The position numbers were made by a program, and so were the translations under genes. The notes under the pieces are model-generated. The model was not told the DNA's origin, ran no database searches, and saw only the letters and a program-made list of their open reading frames with translations. Shown piece after piece: positions 4,971 through 43,465 of a stretch of DNA of 62,298 nucleotides; position 1 is the stretch's first letter, and each line of letters starts with the position of its first letter. Origin of the DNA: a virus; IMG/VR virus record IMGVR_UViG_3300012928_000004, positions 1-62,298 of that record. The stretch is one strand, 5' to 3'.

Positions 4971-6155
4971 ATGGCAAAAAACACACACCTAGAGCACCTA
5001 GAAGATGACATCTTTAATGAAGGGTCTGCTGGTGCTACCAATGCTCTCAACTTCCTCAAAGCTCTCCGTGATATGCTTTCAGAGGGTAGTGGTGGGTCAA
5101 AAGTAAAGATTACTACTAAGTGGGATGGTGCCCCCGCTGTTATATGTGGTCGCGACCCAGAAAACGGGAAGTTTTTTGTTGGCACCAAGTCTGTATTTAA
5201 TAAGGTAGACGCTAAGATTGTATACACTGATGAGGATGCTGATAGACTTTACGGTGGGTCCACTGTAGGTAGCATTCTTAAGTTGTGTCTTAAGTATCTG
5301 AGTGACCTTCCTATCAAGGGTGTGCTACAGGGTGACCTGTTGTATAGTAAACCACTTAGTAAGATGAGTGGTGAGTATAAATTCAAACCAAACACCATCA
5401 CCTATGTGTTAGATGCTAAGTCGCCTATGGGTATGAAGGTAGGTGCTAGTAAGATGGGCATTGTATTTCACACCACATATACTGGTAACAGTATGTCATC
5501 CCTGTCTGCAGGTTTCGGTGTAGATGTATCCAATCTACAGGGTGTTAAGAATGTAGCAGTATTCTCTTCATCCTTTGACAATATCGGTGGTGCTGCTAAC
5601 CTGACACCTGCTGAGAAGTCTAAACTAAACAGTGTGATTCTATCTGCAGAGAAGTCACTTGCCTCTGGTGGTAAATTCCTTGACACTATCCAAGGTGGTA
5701 AGGGACCCTTCAGTCTACCTGCATTGTTTAAGGTATACTTCAACCAGATTATTAGAGGTGGTAAGATTCCTACCTCGTCATCACAGATGGCAAATGGTTT
5801 CAAACAATTCGTTAGCACTAAGTATACCACTGAGATTGAGAAGAAAAAGACTCTCAAATCTAAGTTAGATTGGACGGAAAGAAAAGCAGAGTCGCTTAAA
5901 TACCTAAATACTAATAGTAATATGATGAATTCTGCACTTGATGGTTTCAAAAACCTGATGGATGCTAAAGTTTTAATCATAAATAAACTCATACAAATCA
6001 AAAGTATTGGGACATTCCTTGAGACAGAGAATGGATTACGTGCCACAAACCCAGAAGGCTTCGTTGCTATCAGGGATGGTGCGGCACTTAAACTTGTAGA
6101 TAGACTGGAATTCTCCAGAGCTAATTTCACTGTTGCTAAAGATTGGGGTAAATGA
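4971..6155 (+). CDS. Nucleotidyltransferase-superfamily ligase-like protein
   Basis: A 394-residue protein. It shows the ordered motifs of covalent nucleotidyltransferases (DNA/RNA ligases): motif I K50-W-D-G53 (TTKWDGAPAV), a following strand with FVGTKS, GVLQGDLLY near residue 117 in the position of motif III, motif IV E362-G-F-V and motif V around A-L-K374-L-V. The gap between motifs III and IV is unusually long, about 240 residues, which suggests an inserted domain. Activity, whether RNA or DNA ligation or adenylyl transfer, is inferred. Its stop overlaps the start of the HxGH nucleotidyltransferase gene, implying coupled production. Confidence 0.55.
   Translation: MAKNTHLEHLEDDIFNEGSAGATNALNFLKALRDMLSEGSGGSKVKITTKWDGAPAVICGRDPENGKFFVGTKSVFNKVDAKIVYTDEDADRLYGGSTVGSILKLCLKYLSDLPIKGVLQGDLLYSKPLSKMSGEYKFKPNTITYVLDAKSPMGMKVGASKMGIVFHTTYTGNSMSSLSAGFGVDVSNLQGVKNVAVFSSSFDNIGGAANLTPAEKSKLNSVILSAEKSLASGGKFLDTIQGGKGPFSLPALFKVYFNQIIRGGKIPTSSSQMANGFKQFVSTKYTTEIEKKKTLKSKLDWTERKAESLKYLNTNSNMMNSALDGFKNLMDAKVLIINKLIQIKSIGTFLETENGLRATNPEGFVAIRDGAALKLVDRLEFSRANFTVAKDWGK
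5978..5985 (+). promoter_or_regulatory. T4-type late promoter CATAAATA
   Basis: CATAAATA lies inside the ligase-like gene, about 167 nt upstream of the ATG at 6152. A further CTAAATA lies at 5904-5910. Either could drive late expression of the downstream gene, which carries a capsid-targeting-like N-terminus. Confidence 0.4.
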
Positions 6156-7273
6156 AATTTCTAGAATTTATTAAAGAGGCAGCGGCACAAGCTGCAAAGA
6201 CAAAGAAACCTTCCACCTCATCGAAGGGTAAATCTGCTGCGGATAAAAAACTTGATGATAAGCATGTTGCTATTACTTTCGGCAGGTTTAATCCTCCCCA
6301 CGCTGGTCATGGTAAACTTCTTGATGCGGTTAAAGCACATGGAGGAGACTCAGGAAACTACAGAATCTATCCCTCAAGGTCACAAGACCACAAGAAGAAT
6401 CCCTTAAGTGCTCAACAAAAAGTTGACCACATGAGGAAGATGTTTAAGCAACATAAGGACGCAATACAAAACAACGAGGCACACAGGAATGTGTTTGATG
6501 TGTTACGTGACCTTCACGATGAAGGACATGAGCATGTTACTATGGTTGTAGGAGATGACCGAGTAAAAGAGTTTGAAGGACTCACTAACAAATACAACGG
6601 TATCCACTACGACTTCAAGAGTATTAATATTAAGTCGGCAGGTGCACGGTCGAATGATTCTGAGGACCCTATCGAGAATCTATCAGCATCTAAGATGCGT
6701 AAACATGCACAGTCTGGAGACCACGACTCATTCCACGGTGGCACTGGTGGTTACAAGGACTCCAAGAAACTGATGGCAGATGTCATCGCAGGCATGACAC
6801 CACCACCCAAGGCAAAGAAACCTAAGAAGGGTGAGTCTGTCCATGAATCTGTATGGGAGTATGCTCCTAAACTGGACTTTGATTCCTTCCGTGACTTCTA
6901 TATGCTTAACCATATCTTTAAGGTAGGTGCACTTGTAGAGCATGACGACAGTGGTATTCGTGGTAACATTGTCCACAGAGGACCAAACTATATTATTATG
7001 AAAGATGGATACGGTGGAGAGCATCGTGCATGGTTACAACATGTGTCTGAAGTAGCACAGTTAGGACCATCAGACCTCAGTCACCAACAAGAAGTTGCTG
7101 CTGACACTACTAAAGACCAGAGTAACTACTCTGCTGATGACGGTAGTGGTAACACATGGAAAGCAGGCACTGATAGATACAGAGAAGCACTACAGAATCT
7201 GACACCTGGTCAAAAACCTGTTAAATTCTCTGACTTTAATGCTCGCATTAGAAAAACAGCTTCAACTAAATAG
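6152..7273 (+). CDS. HxGH nucleotidyltransferase (NMN adenylyltransferase-like) with T4-type capsid-targeting N-terminus
   Basis: A 373-residue protein. Residues 39-60 read VAITFGRFNPPHAGHGKLLD, with the HxGH catalytic motif H50-A-G-H53. SASKMRKHAQ at 178-187 corresponds to the (I/L)SxTxxR nucleotide-binding motif. This is the cytidylyl/NMN-adenylyltransferase fold. The N-terminus MKFLEFIKEAA resembles the capsid-targeting sequence of T4 internal proteins (MKTYQEFIAEA), and I-K-E|A fits the gp21 protease site, so the enzyme may be packaged in the head. The C-terminal 150 residues include an SH3-like stretch (FKVGALVEHDDSGIRGNIV). The ATGA overlap with the ligase-like gene suggests joint function. 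Confidence 0.65.
   Translation: MKFLEFIKEAAAQAAKTKKPSTSSKGKSAADKKLDDKHVAITFGRFNPPHAGHGKLLDAVKAHGGDSGNYRIYPSRSQDHKKNPLSAQQKVDHMRKMFKQHKDAIQNNEAHRNVFDVLRDLHDEGHEHVTMVVGDDRVKEFEGLTNKYNGIHYDFKSINIKSAGARSNDSEDPIENLSASKMRKHAQSGDHDSFHGGTGGYKDSKKLMADVIAGMTPPPKAKKPKKGESVHESVWEYAPKLDFDSFRDFYMLNHIFKVGALVEHDDSGIRGNIVHRGPNYIIMKDGYGGEHRAWLQHVSEVAQLGPSDLSHQQEVAADTTKDQSNYSADDGSGNTWKAGTDRYREALQNLTPGQKPVKFSDFNARIRKTASTK
7266..7272 (+). promoter_or_regulatory. Late promoter-like CTAAATA
   Basis: CTAAATA overlaps the stop codon of the preceding gene and lies 26 nt upstream of the ATG at 7299, the usual distance for a T4-type late promoter in cyanophages. Confidence 0.55.
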
Positions 7274-40800: not shown

Positions 40801-41021
40801 AGAAAGTTGAAAATTCAGAGCAATTGCTAGAACGCTTTGCCAAACGCACAAAACAACTAATTGCTAGAAAAGCAGAGTTGCAACCAGCATATGTTGAGTA
40901 TGTTAAACTAGAAAAAGACCTAATTCGTCTAGAAGGGTCTAAACAGGCAATTGAATATGCTGCATATGGTAAAATGCCTGGTGATGGCAATCATGATAAG
41001 TTTGCAGACCATAAACCCTAA
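40797..41021 (+). CDS. Coiled-coil protein, 74 residues
   Basis: A Lys/Glu-rich helix with heptad spacing (ENSEQLLERFAKRTKQLIARKAELQPAYVEYVKLEKDLIRLE). It looks like a small coiled-coil adaptor. The preceding membrane protein is coupled to it. A late-promoter-like CTAAATA overlaps its stop. Function unknown. Confidence 0.55.
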   Translation: MKKVENSEQLLERFAKRTKQLIARKAELQPAYVEYVKLEKDLIRLEGSKQAIEYAAYGKMPGDGNHDKFADHKP

Positions 41022-41024
41022 ATA
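41018..41024 (+). promoter_or_regulatory. Late promoter-like CTAAATA
   Basis: CTAAATA 23 nt before the ATG at 41048, overlapping the preceding stop. It supports late expression of a gene that carries a capsid-targeting-like N-terminus. Confidence 0.6.
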
Positions 41025-41047: not shown

Positions 41048-41878
41048 ATGAAGTCATATAGTCAATTCATCTTAGAATACGAGTATATGACTTGTGAAGA
41101 TGAAGAGTTAAAAGAAGGTCTAAGAAAGAGACTAGCGGGTGTTGGTGTTGCTGCAGCATTGGCGGCAGGTGGTGGTATTGCTGACGCAAAGGCAAAAACA
41201 CACACCAGCGGTCATATTAATGTTTCCCATGGGTCACAAGCTGCTAAGGTAACTGATAAGTCTGTTGCAAGTGCTGTAACTAAAGCAATTGACAAACCTG
41301 GCACTGAGCATTCTGCTTCCTCAGAAGTAGGAAAAACCAAAACTACTGTCAGTGGTGGTATCAATGTAAGTGGTAAACTTGGTGGTGGAGATGGTCAGGA
41401 TAAACAAAAAGTGAAGAGGCAGAAGGAAAAGGAGAAAGCTGAGCGTAGGACTCAAAGGAGAGTAGACAAATCTCCAGAAAAACCTGATAAAAAAGCATTT
41501 AATTGGAAGAATGCTAGAAGAGGGTCTGGTCAGGAAGTAAATAAAGAGAAAAATATAAGACATCAGTTTAAGACTAAGACCCGATATGCAGTCCCTACTG
41601 CCACTAAAGGTCATCAGCAACAAGATAAAAAGTTTGGCACCAGTGGTAACAGGACAGCATCTGGACCTAATCAAACAAGTAGGTTTGTAAGGACTGGTGA
41701 TACTCGCTCTGGTGGAGGACAGTATACTAGGACCAGAACTATAGGTGACCCAACAGGATCAGGAAGCACTGGTAATACAGTCAATGCTAATAAATTTAAG
41801 AGACTGTTTGGTAAAGGTGGTAAGTTTAGAAATGTAGACAAGGTGCCCGATAACGTGGGCAAACCATATAAAATGTAA
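41048..41878 (+). CDS. Probable internal head protein with capsid-targeting N-terminus
   Basis: A 276-residue protein. The N-terminus MKSYSQFILEYEY resembles the T4 internal-protein capsid-targeting sequence MKTYQEFIAEA, and I-L-E|Y fits the (L/I)-x-E gp21 cleavage rule. The remainder is Gly/Lys/Thr-rich, very basic and low-complexity (KQKVKRQKEKEKAERRTQRR), suited to packing with DNA. A hydrophobic Ala/Gly stretch (LAGVGVAAALAAGGG) is near residue 30-45. The late promoter upstream agrees. Packaging is inferred by analogy to T4 IPI-III. Confidence 0.62.
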   Translation: MKSYSQFILEYEYMTCEDEELKEGLRKRLAGVGVAAALAAGGGIADAKAKTHTSGHINVSHGSQAAKVTDKSVASAVTKAIDKPGTEHSASSEVGKTKTTVSGGINVSGKLGGGDGQDKQKVKRQKEKEKAERRTQRRVDKSPEKPDKKAFNWKNARRGSGQEVNKEKNIRHQFKTKTRYAVPTATKGHQQQDKKFGTSGNRTASGPNQTSRFVRTGDTRSGGGQYTRTRTIGDPTGSGSTGNTVNANKFKRLFGKGGKFRNVDKVPDNVGKPYKM

Positions 41879-42303: not shown

Positions 42304-42497
42304 GAGAGCTTAAGGAATATGATTTTGGGGGTAGACCTCAAAGTGCTATTAATCTCTGTTGTCTTATCAGTGAAATGGAAGGCACATATCAACATCTTAA
42401 ATACATGGGATTTAAGGAAGATATGGAAACCATGGAAGAAATGAAGAAGAGATACTATAAACTCTACTTCAAAAAGAAAAAGGAAGAGAAGGGTTAG
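42300..42497 (+). CDS. Hypothetical basic protein, 65 residues
   Basis: The last + strand gene before the convergent tail pair. It contains GGRPQSAINLCCLISEMEGT and a strongly basic, helical C-terminus (MKKRYYKLYFKKKKEEKG). Its stop overlaps the stop of gp53 on the other strand by 4 nt. Function unknown. Confidence 0.55.
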   Translation: MRELKEYDFGGRPQSAINLCCLISEMEGTYQHLKYMGFKEDMETMEEMKKRYYKLYFKKKKEEKG

Positions 42498-43465
42498 TAA
42501 CCACCACCATATCCACCGCCACTAGAGGAGGAAGAAGAGCTACTGCTGCTAGAGCTACTAGAGGAGGAGCTACTACTGCTAGTAGATTGTCCTTCAGTGT
42601 TGCTGGTGCCGTATTGGTTGGTGGTTGTTATTGTTTCAGTGCCTGCTGCAGAAGTGGTAACTACAGTTGTGCCATCTGCTAACACGTCTCCTGCTTGAAT
42701 AGTTGCTCCCTCGTTGTTGATAGTAATATTTCCATAATCTGCCTCTGAAGCAAACTCGATAGTAGATGTCCGACCAACATTTGTGGAATATGTTGGTTTG
42801 ACTGGAATGAAGTTTTCTTCGACTGCACCTGTGGTCCTCTTATGACCAGTATTGATATCAAGTTCGATGTTGTCCTCGTAACCAACCAATTCCGTAAACT
42901 CATCAACAAATTCTTCTAGATAAGGTTCGCGAAGTATGTATATATTTCTCTTGAATTCATTTTCATTACTCTCATGCTCAAAGTTAGTAACTTCCTTGAC
43001 TACGTGGTCTTTTAGCATCGTAGTGCCATCTGGACGTTTATAAGAGAAACTTTCAGGCACCTGAATACCTTCACGTAGCAATACTACATTCTTTGGACCT
43101 CTAATTTCTCGTGTTTCCCAGTGATGGGTATCCTCTACTTTACCCTTACCATACTTACGCTCACAGTAATCATATAACTCATGCTCTGACATAGGCCATT
43201 CTGAGTAGATATTAGTAATATTGTTAGTAATCAATATAACCCAATCAAACTTAGGGTCATTATAAAATTGCTCAGCAATTTGGTCAGGTCTCTCCTGATT
43301 CTTAATAGTATATTGAGTAAATCCTGTTACTAAAAACTCTATATCATCACGAATTTTAATTCTGCGAAAGATATTTTTCGCTAAAACATACGGGTCATTA
43401 TTGTTTGTCCTATATGTTTGAGTCCTAACGTATACGTCAGGTAGATATGTGAAGTAATTAGACAT
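42494..43465 (-). CDS. gp53: Baseplate wedge protein gp53 with polyserine tail
   Basis: A 323-residue protein. The N-terminal 190 residues match gp53: PDQIAEQFYNDPKFDWVILITNNI is the characteristic LysM-like baseplate wedge region. Residues after 200 are a Thr/Ala-rich extension ending in a run of about 21 Ser and GGGYGGGY. T4 gp53 is about 196 residues, so the C-terminal extension is an addition. It joins the wedge at the baseplate. The gene overlaps gp48 by 8 nt on the same strand. Confidence 0.85.
   Translation of the reverse strand: MSNYFTYLPDVYVRTQTYRTNNNDPYVLAKNIFRRIKIRDDIEFLVTGFTQYTIKNQERPDQIAEQFYNDPKFDWVILITNNITNIYSEWPMSEHELYDYCERKYGKGKVEDTHHWETREIRGPKNVVLLREGIQVPESFSYKRPDGTTMLKDHVVKEVTNFEHESNENEFKRNIYILREPYLEEFVDEFTELVGYEDNIELDINTGHKRTTGAVEENFIPVKPTYSTNVGRTSTIEFASEADYGNITINNEGATIQAGDVLADGTTVVTTSAAGTETITTTNQYGTSNTEGQSTSSSSSSSSSSSSSSSSSSSSGGGYGGGY

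Follow-up and report, generated by a model that had tools for sequence, protein, structure and literature searches.

A T4-type capsid-targeting-like leader on a putative internal head protein of a cyanophage genome fragment, and on many unrelated phage proteins

Does a phage protein in which no domain can be recognised travel inside the head, as its first ten residues would suggest? The question is raised by one gene of a 62-kb IMG/VR virus fragment from an uncultured marine cyanophage, which was analysed over its whole length of 62,298 nt (the window) and is related to S-WAM1, P-TIM40, S-SZBM1 and other Kyanoviridae. Other genes of the window we take to be psbA-like, psbD-like, gp32, gp53, gp48 and gp4, identities that are assumed partly from synteny. 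The gp53-like baseplate protein (42494-43465, minus strand) has at its C-terminal end a long poly-Ser tract followed by GGGYGGGY.

The gene in question encodes 276 amino acids plus stop, and its product is called P0001 here (Table 1). The reading frame given by the initial annotation, starting with MKSYSQFILE, was confirmed, and its description of the remaining sequence as basic, Gly-rich and low-complexity was borne out by a pI of 10.2 with 12.7% Gly and 13.4% Lys. The AlphaFold2 model of P0001 was of low confidence throughout (mean pLDDT 43), which is consistent with a largely disordered body. No match to P0001 was obtained in Pfam, in PHROGs, by tblastn on phages or in a first IMG/VR scan, and no domain was recognised. 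The N-terminal 67 residues returned nothing by tblastn at E 10.

Table 1. Positions in the window of P0001, its predicted parts and the second leader-bearing protein (arrow, predicted cut)
Feature	Coordinates	Strand	Evidence or remark
CTAAATA late-promoter-like box	41018..41024	+	23 nt before the P0001 ATG
CDS, putative CTS-bearing internal head protein P0001, 276 aa	41048..41878	+	six distinct homologous IMG/VR genes with the same leader
Capsid-targeting-sequence-like leader, residues 1-10 (MKSYSQFILE), with predicted prohead-protease site ILE↓Y	41048..41077	+	Y4, F7, I8, E10
Second predicted prohead-protease site, residues 21-24 (LKE↓G)	41108..41119	+	L21 and E23 invariant in 7-member alignment
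Basic n-region, Ala/Gly hydrophobic segment and A-x-A, residues 25-49, signal-peptide/TM-like	41120..41194	+	KD15; A-[QRK]-A conservation
Basic Gly/Lys/Thr-rich body with conserved TTVSGGINVSG and ASGPNQ motifs	41195..41875	+	alignment
Cytidylyltransferase-like leader-bearing protein, MKFLEFIKEA	6152..7273	+	PF01467, E 1.7e-9; phrog_395, E 5.5e-87

The T4 capsid targeting sequence (CTS) was established with a few proteins of E. coli phages. The prohead protease, gp21, cleaves after L/I-x-E. Mutagenesis of T4 IPIII showed targeting to depend on residues 4 and 7, and processing on residues 8 and 10 (PMC9026906). MKSYSQFILE has all of these positions, those for targeting (an aromatic residue at 4, F7) and those for processing (I8, E10), and six of its ten positions are identical to MKTYQEFIAE, the start of T4 IPII and IPIII. 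The initial annotation had given the latter 10-mer as the leader of IPI-III; the likeness holds for IPII and IPIII, but IPI starts with MKTFKEFTST and has an I-x-E↓A site at residue 19. In P0001 the protease motif is found both at the leader end (I8-L9-E10) and after it (L21-K22-E23). The major capsid proteins of S-CREM2 and S-SZBM1 contain LTE↓A near the expected propeptide end. In T4 itself, the hypothetical protein gp61.1 (NC_000866.4, 18966-19130, minus strand; 54 aa) starts with MKTFKEFIKE and has a Lys/Glu-rich end; going by its leader, gp61.1 may belong to the internal head proteins without having been recognised as one.

Relatives of P0001 were reached only through a neighbouring gene: a scan of 80 loci retrieved with it gave two homologs with E values of 1e-54 and below, and an alignment search then brought the total to six distinct genes (L268, L270 and L271, as repeats of L260 or L257, were not counted). 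Overall identity in the family is 42-52%. All six homologs start with MK[TSA]FS[QK]F[IM]EE and keep the leader, and [FY]4, S5 and F7 are present in all seven members, P0001 included. Of the six distinct homologs, five have Met at position 8 and so do not follow the L/I-x-E rule at the leader end; further L-x-E sites lie downstream. The whole family has L-x-E↓[GS], a stretch of basic residues, a hydrophobic Ala/Gly segment with an invariant A-[QRK]-A, and a basic body that is Gly-rich and contains TTVSGGINVSG. In the cultured phage S-8S53, an 834-aa low-complexity protein (L266:3605-6109) contains a P0001-family module of about 50 aa without the leader, and its gene adjoins a cytidylyltransferase gene.

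A CTAAATA late site had been claimed 23 nt before the ATG of P0001 and was seen there. The same heptamer is the late promoter motif of phage Aeh1 (PMC1524935). All 16 copies in the window are on the plus strand, and 7 of them precede a predicted ATG by 15-26 nt (binomial p 5e-8). In each of the seven family members, the distance from the start of TAAATA to the ATG is 28-30 nt. By its late box, and by the offset conserved in seven members, P0001 would be expressed late, as are the T4-type internal head proteins that bear a CTS.

We consider it probable that P0001 is a late-expressed, protease-processed and probably injected internal head protein with a T4-type CTS. For P0001 itself we infer packaging into the virion, processing and injection, as follows. 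Tyr4 and Phe7 of MKSYSQFILE would dock the protein to the assembling prohead core, a prohead protease of the gp21 type would then cut it after Glu10 and probably after Glu23, and the basic, largely disordered body would remain among the packaged DNA and probably be co-injected. P0001 resembles T4 IPII and IPIII in its 10-residue leader, its basic body and its late promoter, and also in that its body is unrelated to those of other leader proteins. It differs from them in the lack of body homology, in its cyanobacterial host and its greater length, and in having both an additional hydrophobic segment with A-x-A and one more L-x-E site. The downstream L-x-E sites of the family resemble the downstream site of T4 IPI (anti-GmrSD), which follows a MKTFKEF leader, although the IPI body is unrelated to that of P0001. 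Internal proteins with a CTS are known from T-even phages, and a review (PMC9026906) suggests that T4-like phages use the CTS generally as a loading device. The T4 proteins IPI-III enter the host by injection, and each of them inhibits a GmrSD restriction enzyme (PMC12373910), so that defence inhibition is a reasonable guess for P0001; by analogy, its role in the host may be take-over or defence inhibition.

The hydrophobic segment could also be read as the working part of a late membrane or exported protein, on which the leader is coincidental or a relic. The segment has n-, h- and c-region-like parts, its hydropathy (KD15 = 1.7) is the highest N-terminal value of the 48 leader families, and A-[QRK]-A is conserved in all homologs. 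Signal-like internal segments were found in 4 of 885 ORFs, that of P0001 among them. However, the segment is internal and not N-terminal: it starts 30-60 residues in and follows an acidic stretch, an unusual position for an export signal, and the leader with its T4-critical residues is kept by all six distinct homologs despite their divergence. We judge a purely membrane-directed or exported protein unlikely. Unlikely too, and offered tentatively, is an arrangement of two address labels in series, in which the leader would load the head, the cut at L-x-E↓[GS] would free an export or membrane signal, and the protein would insert into or cross the host membrane after injection. The predicted new N-terminus after this cut is GLRKRLAGVGVAAALAAGGGIADAKA in P0001 and SIASRLKAVKRRGAGIAKRAAIAGAAAAALAGGAPAQA↓A in a homolog. 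The P0001 family would then join to its packaging label a possible second, membrane-directed signal; no precedent for a virus-matured, injected and exported effector was found in the searchable literature.

The internal head protein reading also depends on whether the leader is more than a chance resemblance. Gene starts were searched with the pattern MK.[FY]..F[ILMV].E. Among 935 predicted genes of five genomes, seven leaders were observed against 0.005 expected when residues 2-40 were shuffled. Loci with the ATG-anchored pattern numbered at least 120 in IMG/VR, compared with 10 for an ACG-anchored control whose scan was complete. Twelve named phages gave 13 leader matches and none for the reversed pattern, and 13 IMG/VR records picked for having a leader gave 33 against none, with at most six per record. 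Columns left free by the scan were also biased among 47 leader families, with T/S at position 3 in 37 and E/Q at position 6 in 34; P0001 has S3 and Q6. The leader is far beyond chance. Its strict form is not universal, since the strict DNA pattern had no match in S-PM2 or HTVC008M.

Enrichment of the leader among cyanomyovirus virion proteins, on which the initial annotation had made its reading depend, was found. In S-CREM2, for which 52 of 219 CDSs were detected in CsCl-purified virions (PMC10665884, Table 3), five of the six CDSs starting with the leader were in virions (hypergeometric p 0.003, or 0.0006 if position 7 is F), and six of nine when S-SZBM1 was pooled with it (p 0.002); the N-termini of the S-CREM2 virion proteins were already in view when the relaxed pattern was chosen, and these p-values are indicative, not blind. 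The strict DNA pattern, run before the comparison with the table, had two matches in S-CREM2, gp6 and gp154, and both are virion proteins. The five detected were the SAM hydrolase gp6, gp13, the APH-like kinase gp14, gp136 and the cytidylyltransferase gp154, while the leader-bearing gp175 was not detected in the S-CREM2 virion proteome. The leaders of gp6, gp14, gp13 and gp136 are mostly MKx[FL]xxFLxE, and their bodies are unrelated to that of P0001. One of three leader proteins of S-SZBM1 (SSZBM1_140) was detected in its virions; SSZBM1_191 and SSZBM1_192 were not. A kinase of S-CRM01 that has been reported in virions starts with MISFDQFLSE.

The authors of the S-CREM2 study noted that abundant, highly expressed non-structural proteins could co-purify with virions. 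The leader is common to the S-CREM2 enzymes, which argues for packaging over carry-over. It was also considered that the leader might have nothing to do with the capsid and serve late cyanophage genes in general as an N-terminal signal for translation or stability, and TAAATA is indeed present upstream of 44% of leader genes versus 31% of other ORFs. Against this, the leader is missing from the known late proteins of the S-CREM2 tail, baseplate and capsid and is found instead on the non-structural enzymes of the virion and on some of its hypothetical proteins; we regard such a signal as very improbable. The residue rules of the T4 CTS here predict virion cargo of marine cyanophages, and the SAM hydrolase, kinase and cytidylyltransferase of S-CREM2, earlier reported as virion-associated and possibly carried over, are picked out by the leader. 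A literature search largely confined to journals outside subscription brought up neither the P0001 family nor an enrichment of the leader among the virion proteins of cyanophages.

The initial annotation had pointed to two proteins in the window with the same leader and unrelated bodies, and had seen in them a modular system for loading the head. Both proteins are in the window, but the leader of the second is one residue shorter than the T4 form. This second product is 69% identical to SSZBM1_140, which was detected in S-SZBM1 virions. Three cyanophage cytidylyltransferases (S-SZBM1_140, S-CREM2 gp154 and T4-GC190) have been detected in virions by mass spectrometry; the first two of them carry a T4-type leader, and the window protein is a close homolog. 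Such a cytidylyltransferase is a folded enzyme, in contrast to the basic and probably disordered P0001. The modular idea itself gained support, as the first 124 leader ORFs fell into 47 body clusters without detectable mutual similarity, with P0001 as the 48th. The bodies behind the leader include cytidylyltransferase, GNAT acetyltransferase, AAA/kinase-like ATPase and DUF6267, and some match the PHROGs 'internal virion protein' and 'internal head protein'. The leader looks like a general cargo label which marine phages reuse on dozens of unrelated proteins. Bodies resembling ADP-ribosyltransferases (L019, L037 and L079) were plausible by eye and were dropped, having no Pfam support.

If P0001 is loaded into the head, it might still have a structural or scaffolding part in the core, as T4 gp67/gp68 do and IPIII in its assembly role, and stay in the prohead without being injected. 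T4 IPIII affects head morphogenesis (PMC9026906), and a body that is predicted to be disordered, rich in Lys and Gly and without a recognised domain would suit such a function. The distribution of the family is, however, patchy. Nothing resembling the P0001 gene was present in the gp32-gp53 interval of S-WAM1, P-TIM40, S-SZBM1 or Syn33, a full homolog was absent from 50,697 phage records, and none was found in any cultured phage having a virion proteome. Because of this patchiness, accessory cargo fits better than an assembly factor, and we consider a scaffolding role possible but doubtful. In metagenome 3300020463, the 3′ end of contig L265 and the 5′ end of contig L192 match the window flanks at 84-94% and both stop at the P0001 region; the copy of this closest relative is unreadable, as the contigs end on opposite sides of the gene, and the assembly break suggests variation there. 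With the leader as a readable packaging label, candidate injected effectors can be listed from sequence alone, for uncultured phages too, and cyanophage host take-over becomes directly testable.

Two further observations were made on leader-bearing proteins. A GxGxW module (DGHGGWYN or RGFGYWAD) directly follows the leader in cytidylyltransferases (L112:347-1681) and in the S-CREM2 kinase (OR473000.1, 10579-12846, minus strand). The Cas9-like nuclease detected in S-CREM2 virions (OR473000.1, 7704-10313, minus strand) has an internal leader-like sequence, LRFASFMAEA, at residue 17, which begins at a CTG codon and may be the true start of the protein.
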